DNA of 64,000 nucleotides from Bryum argenteum (Eukaryota > Streptophyta > Bryopsida > Bryales > Bryaceae). The first letter of the stretch is position 1, and every line of letters starts with the position of its first letter. The position numbers and the translations under genes were made by a program. The DNA lies in assembly GCA_037043015.1 (NCBI GenBank), contig CM073321.1:35814101-35878100 (forward strand), read 5' to 3'. Below, piece by piece: positions 4,181 to 42,871 of the stretch. A model generated the notes under the pieces. The model did no database searches and had not been told where the DNA came from. It saw only the letters and a list, made by a program, of their open reading frames with translations.

Positions 4181-7100
4181 AAAAAAATCCAAAATTTGGC
4201 AAACTTCAACAACATTCAAGAGACATGGAGACACTTATGGTGTGACATGAGTCAAACAATTTTGTGGACATAGATACTAATATATTTTTTATAATGCTAA
4301 ATTGCAAAATACTGTCACAAAACGTGTTAACTACACAGTCTGGGGTTTAGGGCGAATAGGGAATATAGTGTGGAAAACTATGACATCTAAACTATGGCGT
4401 GCTCAAGAATGCCTCTCTCCATGATCATCTTCACCTCGTTGAAACTTAGGGTAGGCGCATGGATGAAAAGGTCTACATCTGGTTCAAACTTGCACACCAA
4501 CACAAAGACATAGTATAGGTGCTTGCAAGGTCTATACGGTTCTCCTCTCCGCCCTAGTTTTGCAATCGTGCTTGTAAACACCAGACAAGTGCAATCTGGT
4601 AATGCACCTTTTGATGGTTGATAAATTGCTTGCGAATCTGACTCCATAGAAATAATGCATCCCATCCGTGGCCACGGGACCATAGTGACCTTTAGTATCT
4701 TTGCCTGCATCGCACGGGCGGAATCAATATTCCGTGTGTGCTTGGGAGTTACATTGGAGATGCGTCGGAGGTTTTTTGACTTTCTTGATTTTAGGAAGAC
4801 ATCTGCATTCTCCGGCACTAGAATATGTGGCAGGTCCCGTGGCGCAGAGGCAGTGTTGAAAGTGCGGTTGAGTGGAAGTCTCTTCTTCTGAGGGAGTCGG
4901 AAACTAGCGTTCTCTAACGCCTTCATCTCCAAACGTGTTAGGTTTGTCCCTAACTTCACGGGCCAGATTGCTGGGACAGGCAGTTGATTTTGAGTTCGAG
5001 ATAACGGCTCCACCCACTTCCGACGAGTGCCCTTCACACACCTCTCAATATCGTCGGGGCAGAAATAAAACTTTTCCACCTTCTTGCGGTGACCATTTTT
5101 AGGAGGCATCCATATTCCGGTATAAGTTGGTGCAGGTGTGGACTTCCCGTTCTGCACTATGCAAGACTCTCATTTCTTCTTGGTCACTGCATGCTGTCAT
5201 TGTTGTGCCCAACAGGACTTGGCTGAGGACTCCCTCAATCGAGCAATATGCCATAAGTTCTCGTTCACTTTTGTCTCTTGTACACCTGTCACACGATTAA
5301 TAGAGGCACCAGCGGATGTAGAAGGTCCGATTGAGTGTTCTTCGTCTTCGTCGTCCTCGTGAATAGTTGTCAGACTCTCACCACAACCCCGGGTAACCCT
5401 TCTCCCGATTGGGGGACGCGAGAAATTCACAGTGTCAGGCCTATGGGTATCCTCTTCCGCTCCAATTGGAACATCACGCTTACGTTTCTTTGAACCAAAA
5501 ATCTCGGCACCCTCGAAGTGAGCATCGCAAGTACAAAACATATCAGCCTCCGGGAACTCTATTACTGCCTTATTGAGAGCCGATGGATCGCTTTTTCTAT
5601 GAGCCTTACGCTGTGCACTGCAAAGTCGGAGTTCCGGACAATGTCCACCCGCTCTACCTTTGGTGTATTGATAGTAACCCACAACTTGAAGGAAAGTACG
5701 AACGTAATCATCAACAGCTGCCATATAGAGATCACCACCTTTATTTCCCGAAGCTTGCAACCATTTGTTATGAATGGATTCTGCAAGGTTGCAGCCTTGC
5801 AGGATGGCATCTCAGCTAGCTCTTCTAGGGATAATTTTTGTTCCTGCCAGGTACATAAGTATTGATGTCAAGCTCAAGGTGTAGGAAGAGGCAATTTTGT
5901 TGACGAAACTGCCTCCTAAAAATAGAATTTTAAAAAAAAAATCATCAGTGGAAATAGATAATTTACTTTTATCCCGAATTGATTGTAAAATCAAAGTTAG
6001 TAGAATTTGAAAATTACCGTAGTAAGCATTTACTTACCAGTTCCATGAATCCACCCCACTGTCTGTAGCGGTGATGGCAATACGAAAGCCATAGGCCTAG
6101 GTGGTAGAGGCCATTTTCGGAGGTGGCGTTTGAAGATGACCACCACGCTCTGATTGCCAAATACCGGGTCTCAGCTTCATCAGATGAACGAGCATCCTTG
6201 TATTGCTTACAGAGGACCCTATGTTGATCCTGCAGTTCGTGGACGATGTACTTCTTGGTATGAGTCTCTAATGATTGCGTCCAATGAAAGTAACAATTAT
6301 GTTCTTAGTCTTCCATGGGAATTGAAGGATCCCCAGAGCCGTAAACGATGCGCACTGCGTTCTAGTTGACTTGTGCATTGTCAGCCATAAATCCTTGGAA
6401 CTTAGGCCTGGATACTCCGTGCCTAGCCATGACGTGGTTGAGATTCCTCCAGAAGACCAGTTGAGCTTGAGTATCTCTAGATTGAAAATCTGAACATACA
6501 ATGGTTAGAATGCGATGGTAATTGGGGTCGTACACATGGCACGCTATGGTAGTCCATGGCTTGACCCGTTTGACATGGTCAAACATCATCCACACATTGG
6601 AGAGGTCGCCTCCTGGCTGCATCCTACGGACGAGGTCGACACTAATACCGGGTCCAACTTTTGACATCTTAAAAATGAAGACTTTGTCAGAATCGTCTCC
6701 TTGGCCCGGGAACATGTTGCGTTGCACATACGCCCAATTGCTGTGTCCTCTAAGCTTCGTGATGCCATCAATGATGCCAAATTTGCGCATGTACTTGAAA
6801 GAGTAGATACGATTCCGCAAGCTAGGAGAGTTCAAGAGTTTACATCAATCAAAGAGTGGCTCAAGTTCTTCAAGAATTAGGTGGCCGGATTTGGGGTCAT
6901 CTTCGTCACGTAGAAGAATGTTACCTACTACGTCTTTGCTAGTCTCCAAGACAATTTTGGAAATTGTTGCTTGGGGGTTGCGGTCAACATGCTGTTTGAT
7001 TAACTCATCTATCATTTGACGTGCGCATCTATAGTCTCCGACTTTGACAAGGTGCTCGTGGGTACCGATATGCACACAAGCACGCTCTTGAATATCATCT

Positions 7101-8039
7101 CTAAAGATGTAGAAGATTTTGGCAGGAGACAAAGCAACGCAGACTCGAGGTTCTCTGCAAATCTTACAGACTAGAGTGGACGATGAGGGAGGCGGTTCGC
7201 TTACTGAGAAAGGTTCTTTGGTGATACCTTCAAACTCCACCTCATTGACTCCCGACGCACGATCCGGGCGTTCCAAGAAAGGACACTTGTAATTGTGGCA
7301 TTGGAGATGACCTACGCAATTTGAATACCGAAATAACAAGCCCATGGTGTTGCTGATGTTAGTTGTCATCGTCCTAGTCCAGACATGTCCGTCATACCGT
7401 TTGTCCATCCCTTCCATTGATCTTGCATTCTTGAGTACAGCGGAAGGAAGTGTCGGGAGGAGGACATATAGGGCATCTCCGTTGAAAGATGGAGGTAGAA
7501 AGGATAGTGTGTGAGTAAGGATGGAATTGAAGTCTAGTTTCTTGACTATATTCTTGCTACCGGGCATGCTACCAAGTTTGCGTAGACATGGGAGAATGTT
7601 TTTGGGTTTTCATGTTTGAGAAGATGGTGAGGGAGAGGCTAAGGAAGAGGGCATTGATAGAGAAGAGTTCTGAGAATTAGAGGAGATGGATGGAAGCTTC
7701 GCAGAAGAACGACGGGGTGGAACGGATGGCTTTCGTTCGACATTGGATGAATCTAATATATCGATACTAACGCGCTTGCCTGGTTTGATCTTGACACGAG
7801 CAAAGAGGGGACCAACGTTAGAGATCGTGGAGGAGCTACAAGGTGTCAGAAGTTGAGTGGAGGCATTCATAACTGACTCTGCCAAACCGTATAGGCGATA
7901 CTTTCCTAACTTCAGCTTCCACATGGTAGCGTTATTATCTAAGACAACAGGTTCTACAACGATGGAGTACTGGACATAATAAGTATGTGGATCAAGAACG
8001 TCGGTTTCTAACCACAATGTGGAGACATCATAGCCAAAG

Positions 8040-8267
8040 CAGATTGCAAGCCAAGAAGAGGTGATTTCAGCCACACCATCAGGGCCAGGAGGAAGACAGA
8101 CAGGGACATGAGAGGCGACTGACTTAATCTCAATCAAATCCGGAGAAGGAGGCTCAGTGGTGGAAGCCATGACTTCAGCCACACCATCAGTGCGAAGAGG
8201 AAGACAGACAGGGACATCAGAGGCAACTGACTTAATCTCGATCAAATCCGGGGAAGGAGGCTCAGTG
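8040..8267 (-). repeat. About 113-bp in-frame coding repeat, N-terminus of transposase I
   Basis: About 38 residues (core PPSPDLIEIKSVAS, then VPVCLPP) are repeated in tandem on the minus strand at about 8,040-8,155 and 8,156-8,267. A third, more worn copy lies across element II at 22,820-22,945. The unit begins with a possible start codon (MASTTEPP). Element II inserted at the junction of two units. Confidence 0.7.
8259..8267. repeat. Target-site duplication, left of element II
   Basis: GGCTCAGTG, identical to 22,818-22,826. A 9-bp duplication is the usual length for Mutator-like elements. Confidence 0.85.
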
Positions 8268-8320
8268 GGGGGAATGTAGAGGTGTGAGCGGTAAGTGTAG
8301 AGCGGAAAGCGGTAAGGTCC
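8268..8320. repeat. Left terminal inverted repeat of element II
   Basis: GGTGTGAGCGG is followed by variants of GTAGAGCGG. It is related by inversion to 22,760-22,817 and to the ends of elements I and III. The repeat is imperfect, as is common in old MULEs. Confidence 0.7.
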
Positions 8321-8906
8321 AATTGAGTATGGGTAGACGTGAACATTTTAAAAAATTTCTGTGTAAGATAGGGACTCTATGACCATTGATTTTAGAGTTT
8401 TTAAAATTTATAAGGATAACTTTAGTCCAATTGAGTACCCCAAATCCGTGGATTTAGATCCTATTTTCATGTGAATGTGATCATGGCCCCATTGAAAAAA
8501 TCATTAAGGAGGGGATCCTGGCTCCATATTTTATTGTCGTGTAGAAATTAGGGTTGACGTCATCGTTCCCAAATCATATGAAATTTGAGGTCACCATTGT
8601 CTCTCAATATGATTTAATATTTTTAACACACTTTTATTTGAATTACGGGGTTTAGATTATATTTTATTTAGTGACATTTATTTTGGAGTAGTGATATTTA
8701 CATTATAATTAGGGCTGACGTCATCATTTCCATTACAGTGTATTTGCTTTCGTGAAGCACTTAGTGTATGTTTAGATATCAGCGATAATCACAATAAATA
8801 TTAATTCAATACCGAATTCAAGAACACATAAATAAATAGTATATTACGGCAATCACGCATACATGGCGCTACCAAGTCGAGTACCTATCGGAAAACAAAG
8901 CACATA
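8321..8906. promoter_or_regulatory. Methyltransferase-side subterminal region with GACGTCA motifs
   Basis: No gene. Holds GGTTGACGTCATCGTTCC at 8,553 and GGGCTGACGTCATCATTTCC at 8,712, plus CAAATCCGTGGATTT near 8,448. The GACGTCATCAT motif recurs at the same side of element III (42,427 and 42,589, inverted) and in the short relatives at 25,448-26,190. TGACGTCA is the core palindrome bound by many bZIP factors; a binding role here is inference. Confidence 0.5.
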
Positions 8907-9871
8907 CTATGCTGAAGGTGTAGTACCATTGAAGTGCAGGTCACACTCATCAGCCTCAAAGTCTATATACTTAAGCACACTATTACTATAACGTGGACGT
9001 GTAGTGTCAGACAAGATGGGAGATGGAGCTTCAACAAACTCTTGTGCAAGACGCTCAGCGTAGGAAGGTAGGGTGAACGTCGATGGAGGGCTATTGTAGA
9101 GATGAGTGTTGCGAGTCAATCGCTCTTTCAGACCTGCAATGCTTAAATGACAAAGGAAGTCAGTAAAATATATTTATAAGAGCAGAATATAAAATTGAGA
9201 AAGAAAATACACGATGATATTACGCACCAATAAACTTTTGTGGCTTCTTTACAGGCGGTTCGTCAGAGTCATAATCTACGCGTGGGGCCGATTCTCCACT
9301 TTCTTCATCACCAGGAGGACCATTTTTGTATTCCGCTAAAACACCATCAAAGATTTCTTCGTCAGGTTCCATGGCGATGAGGTGGCGGTTTGAGCGCGCG
9401 CAAGCAATTACAGATGCACCTTAAAAACCAGAAGCGCACGTTAGAAATGCGAAATGTATAAACGAATTATACAGTTCCGTTTACGGATACGTTACCTGTA
9501 CTTGCGCTCCAGTCGAAGACTATACCTCCGTTGTCCGTAAGACAATCTACGAAACATTGAATGAAGGAGGGATCCATCTCTCGTGAGCCTCGCCATGGCG
9601 TACCGTCCGGACGAGTACGCAATGTCTCTTTGTCTGCAAAGTTAGAGAGGTGCTCTTCCTCATCAGGTATGATTGCCACACCCGCGTATGCGTGGGATAC
9701 TTGCCGAGTTTGGAACTTCGAAAAAAAGTCTTTTCGCACATAAACTTTGATATGAAAGCAATGAGTCTGCAAAACACAAGTATAGATATATTAACATACA
9801 AGCATAGAAGGCAGTAATCATAAACTGTGAGAATGGAAACTAGAAACTGCTGCGTACCTCTCTCGGGTGTG

Positions 9872-11544
9872 CACTACAAGGATATATGTGACCTGATTGA
9901 CAAAACATTGACGTAATTTGGTCAATTGTCCCGTCAATTAGGAGACCCTGATTCGGTCACTTATTAACAAAAACATGTCGATTCGGCTGTCAAATCGGAC
10001 AAGACTACACGTCAGCAAGTTCTTATGGTGAGAGGAAAAAAAAAAAAAAAAAAAGAAAAATGAAAAAAAAAAAAAAAAAAAACATTTTTTCCACTGCCCG
10101 AATGTTTCGGGCAATACTTACTTTCAAAAAGCTCTCCAGCGAGTCCATGCCGATTACTTCAGAAGTCCCGCACCTCGCCGGAATCGAACTCGGGACCCCG
10201 ACCTTCCAGACTACTACCTTACCAACCCGCCCTCCATTCAACTCGATGATTAATAAGGAATTTGTTTCAACTATATAGACTTGTTGTTTTCAAACTCAGC
10301 AGAATTTGGCGGCCATTTTGACATAGTAAAACAACTTTTTTCAAAAACCTTTAGACTACGAAAAGCTGGTAAATCAAGTTACGTTTCATCTCCAAAAATC
10401 CTTTTGTCATTTAAAGCCTCCATTCAAAAGTTATAGACAAAATTCAAAGAGGGTGTTTGAAAATATCAAAAAAGAAAATCCCTTGCTACCCCTCTTTGAA
10501 TTTTGTCTATAACTTTTGATTGGAGGCTTTAAATAACAAACGAATTTTTGGTGATGAAACTTTACTAGGTTTACTAGCTTTTTTTATCCTAACAATTTTT
10601 GAAAAAAACTATTCTACTATGACAAAATTCTTGCTAAAGTCTGCTGATTTTTTTTAAATCCCTAAATGACCTTCACGCCCCCATGCGGCTTCTAGAAGTA
10701 GAAAGTGAGAAAATTATGGTTCTTGGGCTGTGAATTGTAGGATGACATGTAAATGTTGGGTATTTTTTAAGTTTTGTTAACCCCAAACTGTCCGTGTGTG
10801 TTTTTGGGAGCTCAAAACCTTGAAACTACGATTTTCTACCTCTATGCATTCCCAAGGCTGTAAACCAAAGTTATTTCTTTTTTTGAAACTTCCAACCGTA
10901 AGATCTTGTACTTAAGACTATTTTTAGTTACTCTTCAAAAAATGAACCGTTGGATGTTTACCGTTTGCGAGATCATAACATCCAAAGTTTGTCTCCCAAG
11001 CTTTTTTGGGCATTGTCAAGATTGGTTTGGAAACTTTGGAGGCTGCCCTTGTAAAATTGGTAAACTTTTTGACCAAGAGCCTTTAGGAACTTAAGTAGTA
11101 CTTTGGTTATGAACATAATTCCAATTCTTTTTTGAAAACCTAAATTTAAACTGCCCGATCTTGGCTCGCACATCGAGAATTGCCCTAGAATATTCAAAAA
11201 TTGAAATTCCACTTTGCAAATTTTACCACACCCACTTTGCAGTATAAGGAGCGCCAAGTAAAAATATTAGACAGAAAATATTACCTTCAAGACCTTTATC
11301 TAGGTTGCCCGAAATTGCAAAAACCTATTTCGGACTTCAAGGACGGTTAGGAATTAAGTGCCCCCATTTTAGCAATTCCACGCTGGTCAAAAATAAAAAA
11401 GGTTGACAAGAAGTTGACAAGGAGTTGACAAAAACATTTATAATTTCCAAAGTGACAGAAGTTGGGCTGCGAGCCTGCGACTTCGTCAATTTGGACATTT
11501 TCTTGTCAACTATTGGTCATATCGGGCCCTATTTCCTTGTAGTG
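9872..11544. mobile_element. CACTA (En/Spm) DNA transposon, non-autonomous
   Basis: The left end is CACTACAAGGA and the right end TCCTTGTAGTG, the classical CACTA terminal inverted repeat. A 3-bp GTG duplication lies on each side (9,869-9,871 and 11,545-11,547). Subterminal repeats of GTTGACAAG type lie at 11,400-11,430, and matching TTGAC motifs lie near the left end. The interior has a long hairpin-like pair (near 10,440 and 10,490) and no transposase ORF, so it depends on another copy. It interrupts exon 7 of the element II methyltransferase gene. Confidence 0.88.
10084..10240 (-). mobile_element. tRNA-derived SINE-like segment
   Basis: On the minus strand, GGTTGGTAAGGTAGTAG resembles a tRNA A box, and about 35 bp later GAGTTCGATTCC matches a B box. 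The minus strand then runs into long oligo-T tracts at 10,033-10,080. The segment sits inside the CACTA element. No tRNA cloverleaf with an acceptor stem is visible, so it is a SINE-like relic, not a functional tRNA gene. Confidence 0.45.
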
Positions 11545-14500
11545 GTGGTACGGTAGAGGCCATTGGAAGTGGATAATATCCCCACCAGTCTCGAACAACA
11601 CGAAAACCATATGTATGGGATTCGGAATCAAGGGTACGCTCGATTCTACGATATTTGGGATGCATCAAAAGAATGGCTCCAACGTCTGTCAAGTGGTATG
11701 CGGCAAAGATAAAAAGGCTCTCAAAGTAGTTTTTATCACGCCGGTTCCAGGATGGAACTTTCGTTGGAGACACACCCGGTACGGGCAAGTTTTTTGGAGC
11801 GTCTGCAAAAATGAGATCAATCCCTGGATGCTTGGGATCATACTCCATCGCCGTACACGGGTACTTTCAGTTTTTTCCAATCTGATATAGAAGCCAATAA
11901 TTAGTTAGTGGCTAATAGATTTACAAGTAAAAAACGTAATTAGGGAGATTATAAATGACAAATGTACAAAATAATACCTTCTTGATGTGCTGGACGATAT
12001 CGAGGATTTGTGAATCCCAGTTTTGAGTTTTCGACAATTGATGAACCAAATCTCCAGTGTTCCCCTTCTCGAGATACATAGGCAGAGTGACTGTAATTTT
12101 TGACGACGAGCTGCTACCACTGTGATTGGGTTTCGGAAGAGGGCGTTTGGCGAATTTTGGCTGACTGAGACGGTGAGGAGACTGCGAAGAGTTGTGGTCA
12201 ACGGTGAAGGACACATGAGGGGATCCCGCATTCGTAAGTCCACCTCTGGAAATCTGAGTCAGACGTGCACCACGTCGAACGTCATTGACTGTCGCACCAT
12301 GTGAAGTTTGAGTAAGATCAGGGTCTTCAGGACCTTCCAGTTGGAGAGGAGCGATTTTTCCGGACTCTTGTTGAAGATCTTCTTCAGGATCCGCAATAGC
12401 GTTGAGTCGTTTCTTCCTTGCTCGAGCTTTGGGCAGTGCAGCCGGGGACGGTGGTGGAGAACTGCAGACATGTGGGCTTGGTAGAATCGAGAGGTCGTCG
12501 TCGTCATCATCATTGACCTCCATAGGTGCATCGCCAGTTCCAAGTGAACCAAGGTTTTGAACAAGTTCTTTCTCCTCCTTGTGCACAAAGTTAGCCTGAC
12601 ACTCAAGGAACCAACCCCCCGTCATCAGCTGTGTGTTAGTAAATTGCCTCTGTTGGGATTCGGAAAAGATGCTGGAGAGATCGTTTGTGACTGCAACGTC
12701 TTCCAACTCCAAAAGAATGGACCATGAAGCTAAAGCTCCCTTCGCAACAAGCTCTTGCGTCAAGTACCTACAAACACAAGAGCCAATTAGAACAACAGAA
12801 TCAAATATGTAAAACAGAATTTGTTAGTAGATAATTAGCTAGCGGTTGGCATACCGGAATAACAATCGTTTGATGGTGACTTTGCCATCCCCAATCTTAT
12901 AAATATCTGTGCCTTTGATGAATTTTGGGCTGGCATTTGGAGCAAGGTAGTTGGCGAATGCCTTCTCCCAGTATAGCAACCTCCACTTCTCGACATATGC
13001 GGATGGCTTGAGGACGGCCTCAGACCATTGAATGTTGAGATTTTCTTTCTCGATAAGCTTCTCCAATTTACTTTCAAGGGATTTGTCCAACTACACATAC
13101 ATAGAACACGTTGAAAAATGTATTACTCGAAAGGCAATAGTAAGGTAAACAGAGAAGTAGGGACGAAATTACCTGTGCCCATAGAGAAGCACGATGAAGA
13201 AATGTAATCAAACTTTTATCCTTCATAGGGCGGTCCTCCGGAAAGTGGACGGATTGACGAACATCGTTTGGTGAGTTCCACCATTGCAACCACTTTGTCT
13301 TGAAATCGAAGTGAACATTGCTAGTTGCTACCATGTGCAAGCGATCGATTGTCATATCCGGTTTAAGGTTTTTGCCGTAGTGTGCATAAATTTGCACACA
13401 ATACGGATTGGAATACAGAATTTAGTATTATCAAGCAATAATATATAGTCGCAAAAGGAACCTTAAAAAATTGACATACACACCTCTTTCGGCAATACTC
13501 TCCCAAGATTGTAATTTGCCACTGTAACCAATTTGCCACGGATTGCTTTGATTTCAACTTTGATCGCATTTTCCATGGCACTCCACACTCCCGGCCCCGA
13601 TTGCTTCTCTTTCGGGACAGTGGCATAGTAAGCAGTCTCGGCATCGTCCGATGCTTTGGCTAACCTCCTCTGTACAAAGGACAACCCAATATGAAGAAAA
13701 TGTGACAAAATTAAATATTATGTACAAGAGACAACCACGTATAAAGAAAACTTACCGAGTATAAAAACTTAACAAAAACGTCAAGAGTGACTAGATACCA
13801 AGTTTCTTTTTTGGCTTTGGCGTCTTTGCAGATTTTGTAGTCCTCAGGACTTATGAGATCTTTGAAATCATGCAGTTTGAGCTTACCAAATTTCCTCATA
13901 CGTTGAAGTTTAGCATGAAGGCTGTCTTGAACATGGTCATGTTCTGTAGACCTACAAATCAGAATCATAAATTAGTAACATTGGAGGGAGATAATATATA
14001 GAACAAATTTAAGTTAAAGAATCAGGTTTCCTCTTACCAATTGATGTCATTCATAACTTCGAGGAGCAAACTGCTCTCCCCGCGAGCATCAAGGATGATA
14101 CAGTCGACCGAAATATGCCACGAGGCATCCAGCTTATGGTACCTTTCGATGTGCCGCATCCACGCGGTAACATGATGGTTACCTTCGTAAACATAAAAGT
14201 ACTTGCCGATAAGATGATGGAGATCCGGATCTGAGCGCAATGTCCTGTCGAACTCGTCATTCGCCTCTCTCCAAAGCGTATCCTTAAACACATTATCTTT
14301 GGCATCCACAATTTTTTCTCTCTCTTTCCTATTGAAGGGAGTAATGTACATGACTCGGTCGCCCTCGCAATAGCCTTTATTGAACTCATTCTCCAATTTT
14401 CTGACGTCTTGTTCCGATATCGGTCGCACCTTAGGATAACAAACAAGGCGACACAATGGAATCATCATGTGAGATTTCTTAACAAGTTTGAGACGCAACC

Positions 14501-14977
14501 TGTTCATGATCACATTTGAATCACTCTTGTGAATCATTCGCATCTCGTTAGCACTCCAGTCTGGATCTTCGTTTTGGAGGTGAGGGGGCATGCGAACAAT
14601 CCCGACGTTGACACCTCCCGGCAATGCAGGTTCCTCGTCATCGGAAAGAGAATCTTGTCGATCATCAGCGTTGAATGTTTCAGGGAGTTGAGCAGTTTCG
14701 GACGGACTTTCGTGGGGAACCGCATCGCTCGAGCCTTCTAGTATTTGTTGCTCACGAACTACTTTGTCATCACCAATTAATAAGACGAGGTTGGACATCC
14801 TCTTCTTCCTCTAGCGAAGAAGCTGGTGATAATCTCATGTGGCAAGAAAAACAACCAAGTAAAACAACGCACATACATAATAAGAATATGTCTAAAAGAA
14901 AATAAAAAATGTATAGAATCATAAAATTGATATATGATAAAGTTAATAAATAAGTAACATATAATGAGTTCAATATT

Positions 14978-17021
14978 CTATTTAGACTTCGAATTTGCTG
15001 CGAGTCGAGGTGAACGTTGGAAAGCAAGTTGGGCCAATGCCTTGGCTGCGAGACAGCTTGCTTTTGCTTGTGCGTAATAGTTACGCATGTAACTTGCTCG
15101 TGTGACCCGATCAACATCAACACTTGTGTGACGGACAGGAGAAGGACGAGGGGGCGTTACGGGAAGCGACGACAAAGGTATTGCTAAACGCCGAGACCCA
15201 AGTACTTTGTGACATAAGATCTAATTTCTGATAAGTTGTTATTCGTGTCAGATTCTTCTTTCTCCGCAACGGCAAATTTCTTCAGAACGTTGTCAGGGTC
15301 CTGCATTCCCACGTACCAAAACTTAGTAAAGCACACACCAACAAACATACTAAAACATCCAACAACAACAACACAATACAAGATCCACGAGCACCGAATC
15401 TACACACCAGCTACATCAAAAAACGAGATCCAACCAAACGGCCCCCTCAATTAGCACCAAATCCACACTGAGCAGTTGAACGCGGGATTCAACAACAAGC
15501 ATAATAAAGAAAAAAAATAAAATTAAAAAAAATACAAAAATCAACCCTCTGAGGTCAGCCTTGCGTGCACGCAAGGCTGACACTCCTCGGAGGATTTCGT
15601 CGAAAACCAATACCAGATGCTCAACCAGCACCGAATCCACACAGGAGATCATCTACAAACGATGACGAACAACCCGCTGCACCGACAAGAGAGGAGCTCA
15701 CTGAATGAAGACCAAGGTTGGGAGCAAGCCCTGGACACTGGCAGCTCAGAAGGAACGGATGTCGGCCCCCTCCACCAGCTCGTCATGTCCACAGAGCGGC
15801 ATCATCGGCATTCCCAGCACGAGCTTAAACGTGGGATTCATCAACAAACAAGATCAAGAAGAAAAAAAAAAAAAAAAAAAAAAAAAACAAAAATCATCCC
15901 TCCGAGGTCAGCCTTGCCTCCACGCAAGGCTGACACTCATCGGAGGATTTTGTCAAAAACCAATACCAGATGCTCATCCAGCACCAAATTCCACGCAGGA
16001 GATCATCCACAAACGATGACGAACAACCCGCTGCACCGACAAGAGAGGAGCTCACTGAACGAAGACCAAGGTTGGGAGCAAGCCCTGCACACTGAGCAGC
16101 TCAGAAGGAGCAGATGTCGGCCCCCTCCACCAGCTCGTCATGTCCACAGAGCGGCATCATCGGCATTCCCAGCACCAGCTTAAACGTAGGATTCATCAAC
16201 AAACAGGCTCAAGAAGAAAAAAGTCAAGAAAAAAAGCAAAAATCATCCCTCCGAGGTTAGCCTTGCATCCACGCAGGGCTCACACTCCTCGGAGGATTTT
16301 GTCAAAAACCAATACCAGATGCTCAACCAGCACCGAATCCCACGCAGGAGACCATCCACAAACAATGACAAACAACCCGCTGCACCGACAAGAGAGGAGC
16401 TCACTGAACGAAGACCAAGGTTTGGGGGCAAGCCATGCACTCTAGCAGCTAAGGAGGAGCTGAAATCGGCCCCCTCTACCAGCTCGTTGTGTCCACAGAG
16501 CGGCATCATCGGCATTCACTGCACGAGCTTAAACGCGGGATTCATCAACATACAGGATCAAGAAGAAATAGGTAAAAAAAATAAAAAAAATCATCTCTCC
16601 TGTCGAACAACCCGCTGCACCGACAAGAGAGGTGTTCAGTGACCAAAGACCAAGGTTGGGAGCAAGCCCTGCACACTGAGCAGCTAAGAAGGAGTTGAAT
16701 TTGGCCCCCTCTACCAGCTCGTTGTGTCCACAGAGCGGCATCATCGGCATTCCCAGCACCAGCTAAAACGAGGGATTCATCAACAAGCATTCGGAAAGAG
16801 CATTGAAGTAATGAGAATACCTTAAAACTTGTGGAGTACCACCACTCTAGCTCGGCCCGCGCTTTGATTGCTTCCCCTGGAGCGTATGGATGCGATGCGT
16901 AAAACTCTGCAAACAAACTCGATTCTGTGGAACCGGACTTCACATTTCTGGAACCGGAACTCACATTTTCCAATTTTTCGAGGTTGTCTCCTTCAACGAT
17001 AGTGTTTAGTTCTTCCGCCAT
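14978..17021 (-). pseudogene. Accessory protein D, element II (two exons)
   Basis: Exon 1 (16,821-17,021) starts MAEELNTIVEGDNLEK and ends with SHPYAPGEAIKARAELEWWY, then STSFK, at a GT donor. Exon 2 (14,978-15,300) encodes an acidic ESD-rich stretch, RRL, then RASYMRNYYAQAKA and the terminal RSPRLAANSKSK. Element III (35,137-37,508) and element IV (50,454-50,768) encode recognisable relatives with the same split and the same basic RRSPRLAAK-type C-terminus. I know no family for it; the charged composition and basic tail suggest a nuclear or DNA-associated protein (inference). A frame change inside exon 2 suggests this copy is broken. It lies just upstream of the methyltransferase gene on the same strand and could be its upstream exons in an alternative transcript. 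Confidence 0.5.
15540..16790. repeat. Intronic tandem array, period about 350 bp, about 3.6 units
   Basis: The array lies within the intron of gene D. The block GAGGTCAGCCTTGC begins units near 15,551, 15,903 and 16,251; a partial unit follows from 16,605. Each full unit contains an inverted pair (GTCAGCCTTGC ... GCAAGGCTGAC) that can form a hairpin, and an A-rich tract. ORFs running through the array are repeat products. Confidence 0.85.
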
Positions 17022-17279
17022 TGCTTCTTTCTCCTCGCAGAAACCAAACCCGCCCTTCAAGTTGTAGTTTACACCGTAATGATTCAAAGGGCTCTACCAC
17101 ACAAATCCTATGAGCTTTATCTCAACTCACCATTCTAATCTTGATTCTATCAACTATGCTAATCATGACTTGTTACAAACCCTAGAGTCTGCTGAGCTTT
17201 GCAATTTCAGTTCAACAAAGTCAGATTCTAGCGGCGCAAGGGCCGGCTGAGCTACTTCAAACTCTAGCTCAGTTACCGA

Positions 17280-17640
17280 AACCTCGGACGGCTTGAGGAG
17301 CACTTTCCGCGCGCCAAGCTGAATCGGCAAGCGGCGGGCAGGTTCTGTCTGCAATTGGAAGGAGCAGCGGAATTGAAGGGAGAAGGGCCTGTATCGGCCA
17401 GCGATGGAGCCCGGCTTGCATCGGCCAAGAACGAAGAAGAGCCTGCATCGGCGAGCGATGGACCCGGGTCTGCATCGGCCAGCAAGGAAGATGGGCGTGC
17501 ATCGGCCAGCAACGAAGGGCCTTCTTGCAATGGCCGACGTCATCACAGCCCTTCCTCCCCCGAAGCTCCCCCCCCCTCCCGCGAAGCCCCTACTGCAGCG
17601 AAGTTCCCCCCCTCTCTCCAAGTTCCCCCCCCCCTCCCGC
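17280..17640. repeat. GC-rich minisatellite upstream of gene D
   Basis: Irregular units of about 30 bp built on TGCATCGGCCAGCAA and GCGATGGA, then C-rich tracts (CCCCCCCTCC) at 17,565-17,650. ORFs on both strands through it are low-complexity and not believable genes. Element III has a different GC-rich minisatellite in the equivalent place (34,830-35,140). 17,650-18,043 is AT-rich with no recognisable gene. Confidence 0.65.
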
Positions 17641-18043
17641 GAAGTTCCCTCCCTCCAGCGCTAACTAGGACTCTAATTAATAACTCAAGTATTAATCACA
17701 TATTCATATATTCAATATTAAAGTATTAATTGCAGAATCACTTATTCATGCTGCTTGCATCTTTCCCATAATAAACAAAAAAAAAACAAAACAAATCAAA
17801 CCTACCATCGTTGTTTTGAAAGAGTAGTCATTCTCGCATAATTTTTTAACTAGACGTTGATTTCGGATTTTATTTCGGAACTACCATTACAGATGACTGA
17901 ATACGCAATCTTACAAATAATACTTAGTACAAACTTATGTACCATGTCATCTCGCAAATATATATAAATATATATATATTTAATTATATGAAAAAAACTT
18001 CTTACGCCAAAGTCACTTCCTCTAAAACTGCGCTTGTATACGA

Positions 18044-18742
18044 TCAAGACATAAAAGCATATCTATACCCGGAAGTAAATGCTAATATATGCCCGGCCTT
18101 ATTCATGATACCCAAGAAAAAGGTCATCTCCTTTACCTCTCCATCTATTCTTCGATCACTGCGCCCCTCATGATCTTCAGCAGCGTTCAATATCTCCAGA
18201 GTACCTATTTGCTCTCGGTTTGCATCGTCATCATTAGCATTCTCGTGTGCATCACTTTCATCTTCAACTCCATCAACTTTCAAACTTGAGCGTGCATCAT
18301 CCTACATTCCGACGACAAAATCAGTAAACACATAATCATAAATATGCTTTGACAAAACCATTCTTTATCACTGTACCTTTCTTCCAGAATCCACACCAAC
18401 ACCATCACCTCTATCTTCGCCTCCAACGTAATAACTTAGGGAATCACTTGAAGTTGATGTACTTCGTCCACGCTCCAGCTCGTTGAAGATGCTCTTAGTC
18501 ACATCTTCATCTTCCAGGATTACGGTATCGGCGATCTCCACAACCGTGTCAAGATTGATAGACCGCATTTTGACACTCCGCCTAAACTGTGGTCCAACCT
18601 CTTCATTGTCTCCGTCGAAATCAGCGGGACCACACTCTTCCCCGCTTGGCCGAGACACTCCCCCCTAACGCAAAGCGCTTCGCTTGAGCGCTTTCGTATT
18701 ACTAAACCTTGTCCCACCCCTCCTTTTCTTTCTCTTAGGCAT
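18044..18742 (-). pseudogene. Accessory protein C, element II (two exons)
   Basis: Exon 1 (18,377-18,742) starts MPKRKKRRGGTRFSNTKALK, a strongly basic N-terminus. It continues into an acidic part with QFRRSVKMRSINLDT, matching FKRTIKMRSLNLDS of element III. Exon 2 (18,044-18,301) is acidic and ends EVKEMTFFLGIMNK and so on, similar in length to the ends of the III and I copies. One in-frame stop lies in exon 1. No known domain; the basic head suggests nuclear targeting or DNA binding (inference). Its start faces that of the transposase across about 160 bp, suggesting shared bidirectional control. Confidence 0.5.
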
Positions 18743-18901
18743 ACTCTCATTCAATCTCTCAGATCCGTGGCTGACATCATCCATGACCTCGTGTCGTTGT
18801 AACATCAGACACAACTGAAGTCGACTCAAATCCTGAACCTCCAAAAACACAACAGACAATAAAAGGGTCGATGTAGTCGTCCTCCATCTATTTAAACGAT
18901 T
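18743..18901. promoter_or_regulatory. Probable bidirectional promoter region of element II
   Basis: The short gap between the start of protein C (minus) and the first possible transposase start (plus, 18,902). CTATTTAAA at 18,889 could act as a TATA-like element for the plus strand. The assignment rests on the divergent layout, which is shared with element III. Confidence 0.35.
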
Positions 18902-21900
18902 TTGACTACCATGCGAGAGACCTACTCACTTTCATTGATCATTAATTATAGCAACTGCAATGACGGCTCCCAGAGCGCCATATCTGACAGTATCTTACAA
19001 ATTATGCTAATTCGATTTAAAACCCGTCGCCCCGCGGCAAAGCTCCCTTCACCGAATTCTGTTTCGAATCCCTCTGTCAATTTAAGTCCTTCGCCCTTTA
19101 CATTGTCACAGGCTAGAAAACCCAAAAAAATTCTCCCTTCTCTTCTGAAACTCAGTTCCATGTCAGGTAGCAAAACTATATTGAAGAAAATCAACTTTGA
19201 AACCATCCGTACCGTCTGCACCCCATCACTTCCTCCATGTTTCAATGGAGATGTTCTATATATTCTACCTCCCGTCACCCCCTCATCTGTTCACAGGAAT
19301 GCCAAGTCCATGGAAGGTATGGACAAGCGCTTTGATGGCCATGTGTGGACGAGAACAATGACCACAAACATCAGCAACACCTTTGGCTTATCCTTTCGCT
19401 ATTCAAGTTGTGTGGGTCATTTGCAATGCCACAATCAAAATTGCGATTTCTTGGAACGACCGGATGGGACTGCAGGAGTAAACGAGGTGGAGTTCGAAGG
19501 CATTACCAAAGATCCGTTTGCCGTTGGCGAAGTACATCCACCATCCTCCACCATTGCCTGTAAGATTTGCAAACAACCTCCAGTCTGTGTTGCTCACTGC
19601 TCCGCTAGAATCTTCTATGTCTTCGGGAATGATGATCAGGAGCGTGCTTGTATCCATCTCGGTACCCACGAATACCCTGTCAAGGTCGGAGTGTATAGAT
19701 GCACAAAGAAGAAGATACATGAGCTATTAGAGGAGCATGTCGACCGAAATCCACAAGCAACAGTTTCCAAAATTGTCATGGAAACTAGCAAAGATCTCTT
19801 AGGAAATATCCTACTCCGTGATGAAGGTGATCCTATAACCTCGCAACTATCTCTCCAAGAGTTAGAGCCAGTTTTCGAACAATGTAGGGAGTTGAACTCT
19901 CCTGCCATACAACACCGTGTCTAAACTTTCAGATATTTGCGCAGGTATGGAGTTCTGGATGGGATCACCAAACTCAGAAAGCTTAGCAAGTGGGCCTTCG
20001 TGCAACGGAACATGTTCCCCGGCCAAGGAGACGACTCCGACAAAGTCTTCATTTTCAAGATGTCCGAGGTCGGCCATGCTAGCGGTGTTGACCTTGTCCG
20101 TCAAATGCAACCCGGCGGCAACCTCTCCCACGCTTGGATGATGTTCGACCACGTCAAACGAGTCAAAAACTGGACCACGATGGAGTGCCACGTGTACGAC
20201 TCCCGATACCAACGCATTCTAACTATTGCGTGTTGTGATTTCCAGTCCGAGAATAGAGAAGCTCAACTCGTCTTTTGGAAGAACCTAAACCATGTTATAG
20301 CTAGGCACGGAGTACCAAAGTCAGAGTTCCAAGGATTTATGGCTGACAGTGCTCAAGCCAATTGGAATGTTGTGCGCATCATTTATGGGTCGGGCAACCC
20401 TACAGTCCCCATGGAAGACCGTGAACGAACGTGTTTCTTCCATTGGACGCAGTCCCTTGAGAAACACACCAAACAGTACATCGTTCACGAACTACAAGAT
20501 CAACACACGGTTCTTTGTAAGCAGTATAAAGACGCCCGCACCATGGAAGAGACTGAGACTCGCTATTGGGCCATCAGAGCGTGGTGGTCGTCATCGAACG
20601 CCACTTCCGAAAGTGGGCTCCAACACCTAGGCCATTGGCTTACATACTGGCATTTTTGCTACAGACAATGGGGTGGATTTATGGAATTAGTGAGTTTCCT
20701 CAACTATACTTTTTATTGCTTAATTATGATATCGTATTTTATTATTTTCATTACATAGGTAAATGATTCTATTTCTTTATTCTGGATTTCAAAAATTGCA
20801 GTTTTGAAAGAAACAATCTATAAGTTAGAACCACTATGCCACAGATGTACCCATTATAGAGTTAAGAAAAACAAAGTTGTTAAAGCATGTATTAAACTGT
20901 GATGGGAAACACAATGTACGAGAAAAAATACTCTCCAGAAGAGTTAGCGGAGATGCCGTCCTGTAACTTTGCTGAGACGGTACACAACAAATGGTTACAG
21001 GCCTCTGGCAACAAGGGAGGGGACCTTTACGTCGCCGCTGTTGACGATTATGTTCGCGCATTCCTCCAAGTAGTGGCTTATCATCAATTCAACAATGGTG
21101 GCAAAGGTGGTTGTGGCCCATCTACAGAGGAACTTCAACTTCGCGCTACTCGACGCAAAGCTCTTCGCACCACCCAACGCAAAGCTAATTGAACAGGAGA
21201 TCCATTAGATATGAACAAGGTAGTATTGAATTTTCCTGAAGCTCAAGTTTTCTGTACTCGCGACGCCCACTTGGAAGGAGCTGAGGTCTTTGGTACAAAG
21301 AAACAGAAGGCAAATGTTCCAATTGGAGCTGAAGAAGAAACACATCGACCTGACATTGTGAGCTTCTCACGACCTCAAATTGGGAGAAGGGTTACCCGAG
21401 CTTGTGCTGTGAGTTTGGGTACTACCTACGAGGAAGACGAAGTTCAAGAATGCCCTTAGGAACCATCTACTTCTCCGGGACCGAGTATCCAACGCGTGAC
21501 CGCGGTTCAAGAGACTAAGGTGAACGAGAGGATGTGACACATTTCTCAATTCAACGAGACATCTTCCAAGGCTTGTTGGGTAAATATGGCAGTGACTAAG
21601 AAGAAATGTACATCACGCATAGTTCAGAACGGGAAGGCTACCCCAGCTCCAACTTACACTGGAATCTAGAAGTCTCCTCTGCGCAGCCGCAAAGTTGAAG
21701 AACAATTCTTTTTCTGTGCAGACGATATTGAGAGATGTGTAAAGGGTTATCGTCGAAGATGGGTTGAGCAATTCTCTCGGACCTAAGATTGACCACCTAT
21801 CCCTTCGGTATGGCCTGTCAAAATAGGGACAAATCTGACACGTAGCAAAATTGAGGCGTTGGAGAATGCAGGATTCCAACTCCCACAAAAGGGCCGTCTT

Positions 21901-22389
21901 CCCATGAACCGCACATTCAATAACATTGTCCCTCCACGGGACTTGTCACACATACCGGTGCGTGACGATGCGAACGTCTTTCCTGAATCAAGAAAATCCA
22001 AGAACCTTCGTCGAGTCACTTCTGCAACACCAAAGTTGATGAAGGGAGTCGATTCAGCTCGGACTTTACAAGCCAGCATACTCAAGGTGACCATGATACC
22101 GCAGCCCGGTTTTGGTTGTATTATTGACTTGGAGTCGGATTCGGGGTCAGTTTATCAAGTTTTAATAAGTGCATTGCCTAATTGTAATTGCCCAATGATG
22201 AAGGACACAATTGCTGAGTTGGGTAGGAAAAGATGTCCATATAGACCGTGTAAGCACCTTTACTATATCTTTGTTAGGGTCTGTAATTTTGATGCCGATA
22301 GCGACCTTTTTATCCACGCGCCTATCTTTAGTTTCAATGAGGTGAAGAGGATTTTAGAGTGTGGGGTCCTAGACCATGCCAGAGACTAG
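18902..22389 (+). pseudogene. MULE-like transposase, copy II
   Basis: Exon 1 spans 18,902-20,689 (GT donor) and exon 2 runs from about 20,917 to 22,389. The true start is uncertain: the ATG at 18,902 and later ones (19,159, MSGSKTILKK) are possible, and similarity with the other copies begins near RKPKKILPSLLKL. Domains in order: SMEGMDKRFDGHVWTRTM, a Cys-rich patch (CVGHLQCHNQNC), CKICKQPPVC with a downstream H-x-G-x-H, a DDE-type core (CHVYDSRYQRILTIACCD, then GFMADSAQANWN, then CFFHWTQSLEKH) and a SWIM finger (CNC ... CKHLYYIF). The D-D-C-x2-H pattern plus SWIM fits Mutator-like transposases. Several in-frame stops, mostly where another copy has Trp or Gln, show it is inactive. It would bind the element ends and move the whole 14.5-kb unit. 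Confidence 0.78.
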
Positions 22390-22617
22390 AGGACACCCTG
22401 CACATACTCTATATGTTCTACTATTATATTGTGTCTTTCCTATCTTATGTACTATGATTTCACAATTTAGTGAAAATCAATATATATATAATTATACATG
22501 TTCCAAAACCATCTTTTCCTATTTAACAGATTTTATGCACATGTAATCTTATCGTTTGAAGTAAAAAATGTCTCTATGTGCATCTCAAGCATGCATAATT
22601 GTAAAATTCTGTCTCCC

Positions 22618-22817
22618 AATTCCGCGGGTTTAGGATCCAAAATCCATGGTAATAAGTCAAGAATATTAGAATATTCTTTGGAATATGCTCTTTAAAATTA
22701 AAAATTCGAAAAATTACAATTTTCTTACTAAAATTACGAAATCACCGCTCTAAAATCAGATTTTCTGCCCTCACCACTCACCGCTCTACGCTCACCGCTC
22801 ACACCCCGGCTACGTCC
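22618..22817. repeat. Right terminal and subterminal repeats of element II
   Basis: The terminal stretch (22,755-22,817), read inward, begins GGACGTAGCCGGGGTGTGAG and carries GTGAGCGTAGAGCGGTGAG-type repeats. Further in are the family's AT-rich palindrome (GAATATTAGAATATTC near 22,663) and the CCGCGGGTTT/AAATCCATGG pair (22,621-22,648). Confidence 0.7.
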
Positions 22818-22826
22818 GGCTCAGTG
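22818..22826. repeat. Target-site duplication, right of element II
   Basis: GGCTCAGTG, identical to 8,259-8,267. Confidence 0.85.
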
Positions 22827-24400
22827 GTGGAAGCCATGACTTCAGCGACATCATCAGGGCGAGGAGGAAGACAGACAAGGACATCTGAGGCAACTGACTT
22901 AATCTTGATCAAATCCGGACAAGGTTGCTAAGAAGAGGAAGCCATGATAGAAGCTAGTACAAGAAAATGGACATACGGGTGGTACAAATGAGATAATGAG
23001 TTCCTGTGGCGATGTTGATGTACTGAAATAATGTACTATTGGAATTAGTAAATGTAAAAAAGAGTTGCAAATTTATTTAGTGGAAGATATTGGAACAAAG
23101 TGAGTGTAGGGGTAAAATTGGACTCACAAGCTCCTCGATGTATACGTATTTAAAACTTATTGTGTAACCGCATTGTTTAAATATTGAATACATGCATTAA
23201 TTAAAGACAAATGCAAAGATGGGGCAACTAATTAAGAAAATGAGATTTGAATTTGTGACGGAGACCGCCTCTGTCAGAGAATTTGAGCGCTAGAAAGGCT
23301 GCTTGAAAATAGATTAGTATATATTGTCAGACACGGAATCACAGTAATTAATTTTGTACTGTATCGGGATGCTGAAGTGTCTAAGAGTCTTATTGGGATA
23401 CGCAGTCGAGTAGTTAGGGTTTAAAGAACGGCGCATGCAAAGAGATTAAAGTCATCCACTTAGAAGAGATAATCCTCTTTGTTTTTGCAGACGTTAGTGT
23501 CTTGAGTCTGGGTTGTATGATCATTTTGTATTGTCAGAGTCACGCATTTCAAAATATCGTGTCTTAAGGGGTAGGAGTTTGTAGTTGTTCGCAATGGAGG
23601 GTGACAGAAGTCAAGTAGAGAGAGGGAAGGATGGAGGACACGGGAAGAAGAAGAGAAGAGGTGGCATGAAGTTTTCTGGATCAAAAGCTTTGCGACGGAG
23701 TGCGATGCGGAAGAAAGATGCGCCGGATGTGTCTGATGACGATCTATGCTAGATATAAAAGAAACGATTGATGAGTTCCTCCCAGGGAGGGTTAGAAAGA
23801 ATGTAAAGATGCGAATGTTGAACTTGGACGCCATTATTGAGAATACTGGCTGTGAAGACGAAGGATAACGGCTTGATTGGAACGAAGGAGGGGAGGAGCT
23901 AGAGTCTAGGAAGCAATCGTAGAGCAGGAGTGGATCACAAGAATTTGAACCTGAGATCGCGGATAAAGAGATCGAAAGAGTAGTAAGTTTAAGTGGGAGT
24001 CTAGGATTGCATTATATGGTAAACTTGATGTGATATACAGTCTTAAAGGTTTTGATGGGTTTGTTCAGTGGGATGATATGGAGACATTCGTTGATGACAT
24101 CTTTGGTATTCATCCTCAGCGATTTGAAGCACAAGCACATGGAGCAACCCAAGATCGTCAATTGGAAGAACGGAATGCAATGGATGGCAATCAAGAAAAA
24201 GACGAAGTGGAATTAGACCCGGAACGATCACCGGTACAAATCCCAAACCTTGGACAGGAGGTTGATCCAAAATATTGTCCTGAGTTTATGATTTATAAAC
24301 ACCCTAATGGTTTCATTCAATGCTGGTTGGTAGATAATAATGAGTTTCCATGGGCTGACAGTGAGGACGTGAACAAAGCAGATGCAGATAGTTAACGTGC
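22827..24400. mobile_element. MULE-like element I, right part
   Basis: From 22,827 to about 22,945 the minus-strand N-terminal coding repeats of transposase I resume. 22,946-23,593 is AT-rich with no gene I recognise; by position it is the divergent promoter region. The relic of protein C follows on the plus strand. The rest of the element cannot be traced with confidence beyond about 24,400. Confidence 0.55.
23594..24395 (+). pseudogene. Accessory protein C, element I
   Basis: The ATG at 23,594 opens a charged N-terminus containing KKKRRGGMKF and ALRRSAMRKKD, clearly related to protein C of II and III. A second part (24,030-24,395) ends in a segment containing GQEVDPKYCPEFMIYK that aligns loosely with the C-terminus of the III copy (EEVHEKPYFPVYWEDLG). 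An in-frame stop soon after the N-terminus and the unclear intron indicate a relic. It is divergent from transposase I, reproducing the family layout. Confidence 0.45.
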
Positions 24401-24960: not shown

Positions 24961-24993
24961 CCCTAAAACCCTAAACCCTAAGATCCTAAACCC
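24961..24993. repeat. Interstitial telomere-like repeat
   Basis: CCCTAAAACCCTAAACCCTA followed by AGATCCTAAACCCC: four to five degenerate units of the plant-type CCCTAAA telomere sequence. Too short and degenerate for a chromosome end. Confidence 0.6.
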
Positions 24994-25075
24994 CAAGACT
25001 TTGAAATTGAATTGTTAACTCGTATGTGAATTTGTTGATTGCTGTTATGGAGATCTCATACATTTGGTGGAATAT

Positions 25076-25175
25076 TGATATCAAGGACGTTATATTGGAA
25101 ACCATGAGTTGTTCTAAATCTATACGTTTCGTCATTAAAATATTAACACCAATATTTCTTCTCTTATCTTATTGA
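25076..25175. repeat. Fragment related to the element IV intron
   Basis: Closely similar to 50,308-50,405 (upstream of the gene D exon of copy IV), sharing ATTAACACCAATATTTCTTC. A short non-autonomous element interrupts the similarity at 25,176. Confidence 0.6.
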
Positions 25176-25690
25176 GGAGAACGTAGAGGCGTGAGCGTAG
25201 AGCGGTGAGCGGTGAGCAGTGAGCGGTGAGCGTAGAGCGGTGATGGGACAATTTTGACTATTTTATATCAATTATGTTTCAAAGTAAAGTACCCTATTAC
25301 CACTTAATTTTGTACTGTACTATTTAAAATGTCTATTTTTAGGGTTTAGGTCCCTAATTCCGTGGTGTTGGGTCTTCTTTAAATGTGGGTCCCAACTCGC
25401 ATGAATATTTCATTTGTATTGTCTTAAAGATTTTATGTGAATATATTGAAAGTAAGGCTGATGTCATCATATTGATGAACGTGTGAATTGGAGGCATGAC
25501 TATTTAAAGATTAAATTGAGTATATATTTTAAGTAATTCTAAAATTTGTTTTTGGGTTTAGGGTTTAGGAATAAATTATGGCTGACGTCATCATGAAAAT
25601 ACAACAAAAACTCAACGAAAGCAAAGAACCCTAGAGATCTATACTACATCCTTGGGTAGTTGCCTCTTATGTAACGCGCTGCTCACACGA
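25176..25690. mobile_element. Non-autonomous MULE-like element (MITE-like) A
   Basis: Starts GGAGAACGTAGAGGCGTGAG with GTGAGCGGTGAGCG short repeats and ends CGCTGCTCACACGAG, i.e. with an inverted GTGTGAGC terminus like the large family. Non-coding, about 0.5 kb. Contains two GGCTGAYGTCATCAT motifs as at the methyltransferase side of II and III, so it looks like a deletion derivative of that end. I cannot define a clean target duplication. Confidence 0.6.
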
Positions 25691-25767
25691 GCCTGGCGAG
25701 GGATAGCCTGCAAAGTGGGCTTCATTTTTCTATGAGGCAAACATTGCATTCAATGTCATACGACATC

Positions 25768-26290
25768 GGAGAACGTAGAGGCGTGAGCATAGAGCATGGA
25801 GCGTAGAGCGGTGAGCGGTGAGCGTAGAGCAGTGACGGGACAATTTTGACTATTTTATAACAATTTTTTTTCAAAGTAAAGTACTCTATTACCACTTAAT
25901 TTTGTACTGTACTATCTTAAAATGTCTATTTTTAGGGTTTAGGGTCCCTAATTCCGTGGTTTTGGGTCTACTTTAAATGTGGGTTCTACCTCACAAAAAT
26001 ATTTCATTTGTATTGTCTTGAAGATTTTATGTGAATATATTGAAAGTAGGGCTGATGTCATTATATTGATGAACGTGTAAATTGGAGGCATGACTATTTA
26101 AAGGTAAGATTGAACATATGTTTTGGGTAATTCTAAAAGTTGTTATTGGGTTTAGGATTTAGAGATAAATTAGGGCTGATGTCATCATGAAAGTACAACA
26201 AAAATTCAACAAAAGCAAAGAACCCTCGAGATCTATACTACATCCTTAGATAGTTGCCTCTTATGTAACGCGCTGCTCACACGAGTTCGT
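25768..26290. mobile_element. Non-autonomous MULE-like element (MITE-like) B
   Basis: Near-duplicate of 25,176-25,690 in the same orientation, with the same GGAGAACGTAGAGGCGTGAG start, GCTGATGTCATCAT motifs and CGCTGCTCACACGAG end. The 77 bp between A and B is unrelated to B's right flank, so this is either two insertions or a tandem duplication. Confidence 0.6.
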
Positions 26291-33953: not shown

Positions 33954-33957
33954 AGAA

Positions 33958-42847: not shown

Positions 42848-42871
42848 ACTAGGAAAAGATAGCTTACATAC

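Follow-up and report, generated by a model that had tools for sequence, protein, structure and literature searches.

A MULE-like transposon family in Bryum argenteum with an accessory gene whose DNA methyltransferase-like domain lacks the catalytic motif

Results

Two insertions of one transposon family in a single window

We analyzed a 64,000-nt stretch of Bryum argenteum DNA from contig CM073321.1 (hereafter the window; all coordinates are window positions and are collected in Table 1). Two large DNA transposons, elements A and B, lie within it. Each carries a transposase gene and a long accessory gene, arranged divergently and reading outward in both elements; the product of the accessory gene joins a ParB-like N-terminal part to a C-terminal domain resembling DNA amino-methyltransferases. 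The window holds three copies of the transposase (in A, B, and a further element, I) and four copies of the long gene (a in A, b in B, and copies C and d). Only A and B contain both genes and both ends, while the end types are common to A, B, I, and C.

A sequence-only reading of this DNA had described A as a complete 14.55-kb unit with related inverted ends, sealed by an exact 9-bp target duplication. The unit, its ends, and its duplication are confirmed. The left and right ends align in inverted orientation over 37 bp at 84% identity; GGGGGAA marks the cargo side and GGACGT the transposase side, and G[CT]GTGAGCG follows in both. As the duplicated 9-mer occurs three times on the plus strand of the window (and never on the minus strand), with the third occurrence (8151) inside the neighboring 108-bp repeat unit, the 9-mer alone is weaker evidence than it appears, and we therefore tested the empty site. 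When A and one 9-mer were deleted in silico, the joined flanks formed a 196-bp match (90%) in register with the tandem array at 8070-8265, indicating that A interrupted a tandem array. The position of this array suggests that it is part of an older relative, element I. The description needs one correction: both main genes of A are broken, the transposase by an in-frame stop and the long gene by a stop, a defective splice acceptor, and an insertion.

Element B sits inside copy C of the long gene. When its flanks were rejoined, they gave a 240-bp ungapped match to copy d at 98.75% identity; copy d thus represents the empty site of B (53612-53620). The GGACGT end of B lies at the transposase side and the GGGGGAA end at the other, arranged relative to the two genes as in A. 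The sequence-only reading would also have lost ground had other family copies lacked the methyltransferase gene; B, the second copy in the window, carries the same cargo. Since the region is dense with nested elements, the unit might be taken for a composite of unrelated nested insertions. We give this explanation next to no weight, because B repeats both ends, the genes, their order, and their orientation at an independent site, and for A and B this second copy rules it out.

The transposase had been described as SWIM-type and like that of Mutator-like elements (MULEs). A divergent transposase gene is present, but a Pfam match to MULE or SWIM is not: ten pieces of the protein gave none at E values up to 10, a range in which HMMER filters drop most matches above about 0.1. 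Comparison with 25 prokaryotic PF10551 domains using hhalign gave 0.1%. By eye, we read the strings CxxH, N[LF]AE[ST][IV]HN (NFAETVHN in A), and CxC...CKH, which we take to be hallmarks of MULEs. The target duplications of 8-11 bp typical of MULEs have their counterpart in the 9-bp duplications at the verified sites of A (exact) and B (one mismatch), and terminal inverted repeats are also present, though short and imperfect. The label "MULE-like" thus derives from the 9-bp duplication, the ends, and the strings read by eye. In our best explanation, A and B both belong to a single MULE-like DNA transposon family, each as a decayed copy.

The accessory gene encodes a methyltransferase-like domain without the catalytic motif

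Exon models of the long gene were built by splice-aware alignment and inspection of junctions, with the copy a introns near exons 3-4 set by inspection. Copies a and b each have ten exons separated by short introns. Every copy of the long gene and of the transposase in the window is broken. In copy a, exon 7 contains both a stop and a CACTA-like insertion of 1.67 kb, and the acceptor of intron 3 lacks AG; copy C has a frameshift in exon 1, is split by B, and contains stops in its 3′ half. As judged from these lesions, the window copies are no longer able to make either main protein whole.

Several features of the decay were also recorded. Seven of 16 in-frame stops (counted in copies a, b, and d and the three transposases, with copy C left out) fall at positions occupied by tryptophan in an aligned relative, the pattern expected of G-to-A decay. 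CpG depletion in the window is only mild (observed/expected 0.83). The CACTA-like insertion contains a palindrome with two 162-nt arms (10292-10651).

The domain encoded by exons 7-9 had been read as a permuted amino-methyltransferase-like domain, and sequence homology bears this out. When exons 7-9 of copy b were compared with phages using tblastn, the best match was a phage DNA methyltransferase (93% coverage, 24% identity, E 4e-5); 103 records matched at E up to 10, and 12 of these covered at least 80% of the query. Alignment to five phage methyltransferases with hhalign gave 94.1% (score 54.5, whereas 200 column shuffles reached 22.0 at most), a value that is not independent, since the five proteins were picked from the tblastn matches. 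The result was 90.7% for 23 DpnA-like proteins, the same five included, and a poorer 17.7% for the methyltransferase part of phage ParB-methyltransferase fusions. Pfam PF01555 (N6_N4_Mtase) matched copy b at E 0.001 and copy a at E 0.012, both below the cut-off, and NCBIfam gave no match to the read-through copy b. A profile search of the PDB returned three matches at E up to 10, with an unrelated protein first (E 0.13) and DpnA second and third (E about 0.5). Motif IV precedes motifs X and I, which is the beta-class order. The homology extends across most of the catalytic domain of bacterial and phage DpnA-type methyltransferases, including the NPMP stretch. These comparisons show that the C-terminal part is a homolog of DpnA-type, beta-class DNA amino-methyltransferases and, on this sequence evidence, the long gene traces back to a DNA methyltransferase of bacteria or phages.

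In the bacterial relatives, the DPPY and DPFxGSG motifs hold the target base and S-adenosylmethionine (SAM). At the DPPY position (motif IV), copy a has DAPK, while copy b, copy d, and the 3′ half of copy C have DVPE; none of the four copies has DPPY. Since C and d are near-identical, the four copies amount to three lineages for this motif. By comparison, 20 of 23 bacterial and phage relatives contain [TSV]DPP[YF]; the other three did not match the pattern used. At the SAM loop, where 17 of the 23 relatives have DPFMGSG or a close string (by pattern), the three aligned rows read DWSASTG, DWSPSTG, or DFSASTV, so that DPFxGSG has become D[WF]S[AP]ST. With the aromatic residue and the loop glycine both lost, methyl transfer by the accessory domain is unlikely, given what is known of this enzyme family. 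Conservation of a domain that lacks its catalytic motif speaks for some function besides methylation.

This outcome does not support the DNA-modifying role first suggested for the gene, in which the protein would be an active DNA amino-methyltransferase that marks its own transposon with N6-methyladenine (6mA) or N4-methylcytosine (4mC). Catalytic-domain homology in beta-class order and the conservation of the domain between A and B (below) speak for such an enzyme, and self-marking has been proposed for a Sola1 protein of Ectocarpus (PMC12477816). Because D[AV]P[EK] stands in place of DPPY in four of four copies, and the motif I glycine loop is altered in all three aligned rows, we consider an active enzyme unlikely.

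The N-terminal part follows the motif order of phage ParB-methyltransferases

For the N-terminal part, the proposal of a ParB/sulfiredoxin-like domain survives, weakly, in the order of its motifs, but not in profile or fold matches. Exon 1 encodes a YEGNH[HR]xxAW box, then VDCIxLD (VDCI[IV]LD), then MNDIN, the order found in the phage ParB-methyltransferase proteins that we fetched (for example GGHQRLKVL, VDCVVVE, and ALNKI in one of them). AlphaFold2 models had low confidence, with predicted local distance difference test (pLDDT) values of 32 and 47; the model built from four window sequences (pLDDT 47) runs strand-helix-strand-(insert)-strand-helix-strand, the order expected for ParB.

Searches with the ParB-like part gave little. 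PHROG ParB matched copy d at E 0.09 and did not match copies a or b, and a profile search of the PDB gave a single match, a ribosomal protein (E 0.99). In gap-tolerant alignments, copy d exceeded z = 3 with three of eight phage ParB domains, none of 16 chromosomal ParB domains, and none of the controls (0/23 and 0/25); for copy a, the corresponding counts were 1/8, 0/16, and 3/23 and 0/25. Comparison of copies a and d with phages by tblastn yielded three records in all (E 4-5). One of these, annotated as a DNA methyltransferase, resembles a C5-cytosine enzyme in its PCQPF string, a hallmark of that class. Searches for relatives with degenerate patterns found none in viral contigs (methyltransferase and ParB alignments) and none in prokaryotic genomes (methyltransferase alignment only). 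The term "ParB-like" is thus a weak one, given on motif order only; we infer a ParB-like module that would bind DNA or nucleotides.

The accessory gene and the transposase have diverged to a similar degree

The ratio of nonsynonymous to synonymous differences per site (pN/pS) between the long genes of A and B was 0.323 (bootstrap 0.289-0.363) over 999 codons, drawn from nine of the ten exons (all but exon 3, and exon 1 only in part). Codon positions 1, 2, and 3 differed at 222, 182, and 488 sites. The ratio was 0.319 in exons 7-9 (259 codons) and 0.288 in the exon-1 part (217 codons); the Jukes-Cantor dN/dS of the gene was 0.175. For the transposase, pN/pS was 0.276 (0.236-0.324; 794 codons). 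Ratios for the a-d and a-e comparisons in exons 7 and 8 were excluded, since amino-acid identities of 16% and 31% point to a wrong frame.

Purifying selection therefore seems to have maintained most of the accessory gene. As its pN/pS resembles that of the transposase, it is long-standing cargo, and the two genes, similarly diverged, have probably shared one history from the separation of A and B onward. Loss of the methyltransferase motifs and the broken state of the window copies might instead suggest a passenger captured by chance, in the style of Pack-MULEs, with no role for the element. We regard a passenger as very improbable, because 999 codons show a pattern of purifying selection roughly as strong as in the transposase, and because the gene is placed and oriented alike in A and B and is present in four copies.

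Further copies of the long gene and the transposase

Self-comparison of the window revealed no transposase match near copies C or d, indicating that the long gene can occur apart from the transposase. The sequence past 54680, where the match of copy d stops, is not homologous to the long gene. For element I, the interval from 22827 to the next element end (25175) revealed no long gene, and we found no far end within the window. A 19-amino-acid match to the upstream region of A at 23654-23710 hints that element I continues past A on the right side; element I may be truncated or may be a derivative that carries no cargo.

Copies C and d form an inverted duplication (42848-46616 versus 49849-53620), with 3.77-kb arms that are 99.6% identical and a 3.2-kb spacer. 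Beyond the B insertion, the same arm (29123-30193) is 96.8% identical to its partner, as if gene conversion had kept the near part alike. A transcript of this duplication could fold into a long hairpin, for which maize Mu killer offers a comparison. The spacer contains GC-rich minisatellites with units of ~18-21 bp (GGGCGGGT-like) at 47661-48152. At 25176-26285, a methyltransferase-side element end is present as two direct copies of about 517 bp (91%), 76 bp apart.

Small proteins, element ends, and tandem arrays

Two small proteins had been assigned to A alongside the long gene. Small protein Y has a counterpart upstream of all four copies of the long gene, spanning 71 amino acids at 65% identity in B and, in C and d, only 35 amino acids at 43% (E about 1e-4). 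Its A-B dN/dS was 0.29 over 69 codons. X and Z have counterparts only in B and only over short stretches.

GAGCG words number two to six per outer 100 bp of six element ends, compared with 105 on both strands of the window. In I, A, and B, one tandem array lies upstream of the transposase, with units of 108, 349, and 116 bp, respectively. The three arrays share only A-runs and short (8-16 bp) chance-like matches.

The asymmetric ends, each with several GAGCG words, would suit a transposition helper, which might bind these subterminal repeats or join the transposase at the ends, and the accessory gene is under selection much like that of the transposase. Maize MudrB and yeast MutB are the comparisons named for such a role (PMC6446971). 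Against a helper, C and d carry the gene with no transposase match nearby; we regard a helper as possible but doubtful.

A minus-strand open reading frame (ORF) at 58852-59655 encodes an NLI-interacting-factor phosphatase domain (Pfam NIF, E 4e-10) and is perhaps a host gene. A short CCCTAAA-like tandem stretch lies at 24961-24998 and resembles plant-type telomere repeats. Scans of the window gave neither a tRNA nor an Rfam family at gathering score.

Table 1. Coordinates of transposon features in the window (aa, amino acids)
Feature	Position	Strand	Length	Remarks
Element I	3981-8267			transposase end at 3981; 108-bp array; A apparently inserted into I
Transposase of I	4390-7609	-		at least four stops
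Left target duplication of A, GGCTCAGTG	8259-8267		9 bp	
Element A	8268-22817		14,550 bp	basis: ends, duplication, empty site in 108-bp array
Methyltransferase-side terminal repeat of A, GGGGGAA...GTGTGAGCGG...	8268-8317	+		
Long gene (ParB-like/methyltransferase-like), copy a	8907-14798	-	~1,140 aa read through	ten exons by homology
Exons 7-9 of copy a	9228-11881	-		beta-class methyltransferase-like domain; motif IV DAPK, motif I FDWSASTG
CACTA-like insertion, CACTACAAGG ends	9872-11544	-	1.67 kb	in exon 7 of copy a; apparent CAC duplication
Exon 1 of copy a	14038-14798	-		ParB-like region (YEGNHHVTAW box)
Small protein Y	14987-15220	-		basic RRSPRLAAK-type stretch
349-bp tandem array of A	15476-16800			between the divergent genes
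Short conserved stretch X	16818-16904	-	29 aa	match in B at 35141-35227 (+)
Short ORF Z	18371-18664	-		weakly conserved in B at 34005-34289 (+), E 1e-8
Transposase gene of A	18896-22389	+		in-frame stop at 19922; exon structure of 3′ half tentative
Transposase-side terminal repeat of A, GGACGT...GTGTGAGCGG...	22768-22817	-		
Right target duplication of A, GGCTCAGTG	22818-22826		9 bp	exact copy of left
Methyltransferase-side end, AGGAGAACGTAGAGGCGTGAGCG	25175-25274	+		fits copy C by position and orientation
Long gene, copy C, 3′ half	28483-30193	-		severed by B insertion
Left target duplication of B, ACGAGGAAA	30182-30190		9 bp	
Element B	30191-42847			anatomy as A
Transposase gene of B	30659-34097	-		three in-frame stops
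116-bp tandem array of B	35251-36945			between the divergent genes
Long gene, copy b	37649-41951	+		ten exons; two in-frame stops; apparent frameshift near exon 6 end
Right target duplication of B, ACTAGGAAA	42848-42856		9 bp	one mismatch to left
Long gene, copy C, 5′ half	42848-46616	-		frameshifted in exon 1; arm of inverted duplication
Long gene, copy d	49849-54680	+		several stops; match stops in exon 8; holds empty site of B

Discussion

Elements A and B are each built from asymmetric inverted ends, an outward-reading transposase and, divergent from it, the small basic protein Y and an accessory protein of ~1,140 amino acids. We propose that the accessory protein may be a sequence-specific DNA-binding factor whose methyltransferase fold is used for binding instead of catalysis. 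Its targets would be the repeat-rich ends of its own transposon or the intergenic array, and its binding might prevent silencing, as VANC does, or aid transposition. We judge a DNA-binding factor of this kind to be the most likely reading and hold it with moderate confidence; a VANC-like anti-silencing role is possible by analogy.

Several observations weigh against this proposal. No result here separates an anti-silencing role from a role in transposition, and in element I, one of three that carry a transposase, no accessory gene is seen within the window. With pS close to saturation, the ratios used to gauge selection are rough, and they average over the whole time since A and B split. Six introns of the long gene are 64-79% identical between A and B (ungapped columns, cheap gaps), and the genes are 69% identical as DNA; since introns are about as alike as genes at the DNA level, the case for selection rests on the codon-position pattern. 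An atypical active site is also possible. For the ParB-like part, hhalign gave 0.1% against 16 chromosomal ParB domains and 0.7% against eight phage ParB domains, with column shuffles scoring equally high in the phage comparison. Foldseek returned 91 PDB matches at E up to 10; not one had an E of 0.001 or lower, and no ParB was among the best 50 of the 91.

A related idea is that a bacterial-type ParB-methyltransferase turned pseudoenzyme, with its fold maintained by selection after loss of the catalytic motif, marks the element by occupying its DNA and not by methylating it. Loaded at repeats, and perhaps spreading as ParB does, it would shield the element from silencing, and the arrays of I, A, and B would be co-evolving loading sites. 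We think this quite improbable.

The accessory gene has parallels among other transposons with extra genes. The red-algal example of such a gene concerns Plavaka elements. For red algae, PMC12477816 describes giant EnSpm elements that carry accessory genes, and it also cites similar proteins in green and red algal transposons (Iyer 2011, Petroll 2025). The same paper reports Sola1-1_Ec32 of the brown alga Ectocarpus, in which an accessory gene with ParB-like and DNA methyltransferase parts lies opposite the Sola1 transposase and self-marking is proposed. As described there, Sola1-1_Ec32 resembles our elements in being a large DNA transposon with its accessory gene on the strand opposite the transposase, and in the protein itself, which has 1104 amino acids (about 1,140 here) and ParB-like and amino-methyltransferase parts, the ParB half here being recognized from motif order only. 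Compared by description, the two differ in that our elements have 9-bp duplications and belong to another transposon type, and in that motif IV is degenerate here, whereas 4mC or 6mA formation is predicted for the Ectocarpus protein (PMC12477816).

VANDAL elements, the Arabidopsis MULEs that encode VANC, likewise have an extra gene, 9-bp duplications, and tandem arrays in their non-coding parts (PMC5735166, PMC6446971). VANC-binding motifs accumulate in tandem repeats of VANDALs (PMC5735166), and the parallel with the arrays of our elements is at most suggestive. This likeness, too, is one of description.

Other mobile elements have adopted related genes. Retrotransposons of dinoflagellates and Klebsormidium acquired cytosine methyltransferases that are under purifying selection; unlike our elements, these are retrotransposons, and their enzymes are of the C5 type, assayed in yeast (PMC5890265). 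DIRS elements with Dam-like genes, and so with enzymes of the Dam type, are mentioned in the same source. Fungal DNA transposons with TET/JBP genes also carry cargo related to base modification, in their case a dioxygenase (PMC12730594). The bacterial and phage DpnA-type proteins themselves are short (205-282 amino acids as fetched, some cut at the match), and 20 of 23 have DPP[YF]; the accessory protein, by comparison, has changes in both motifs and joins the domain to another long protein.

In searches of an open-licence library, we found no published case of a MULE carrying this gene. The layout of an accessory gene opposite the transposase is already in print (PMC12477816). Our analysis adds another transposon type, two site-verified insertions, an estimate of selection, and the absence of the catalytic motif. 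The two nested insertions with their empty sites provide a clean definition of the family with which intact copies can be located. If intact relatives likewise lack the motif, the idea of self-methylation would fail for this lineage, and a binding role, in anti-silencing or in transposition, would become the hypothesis.

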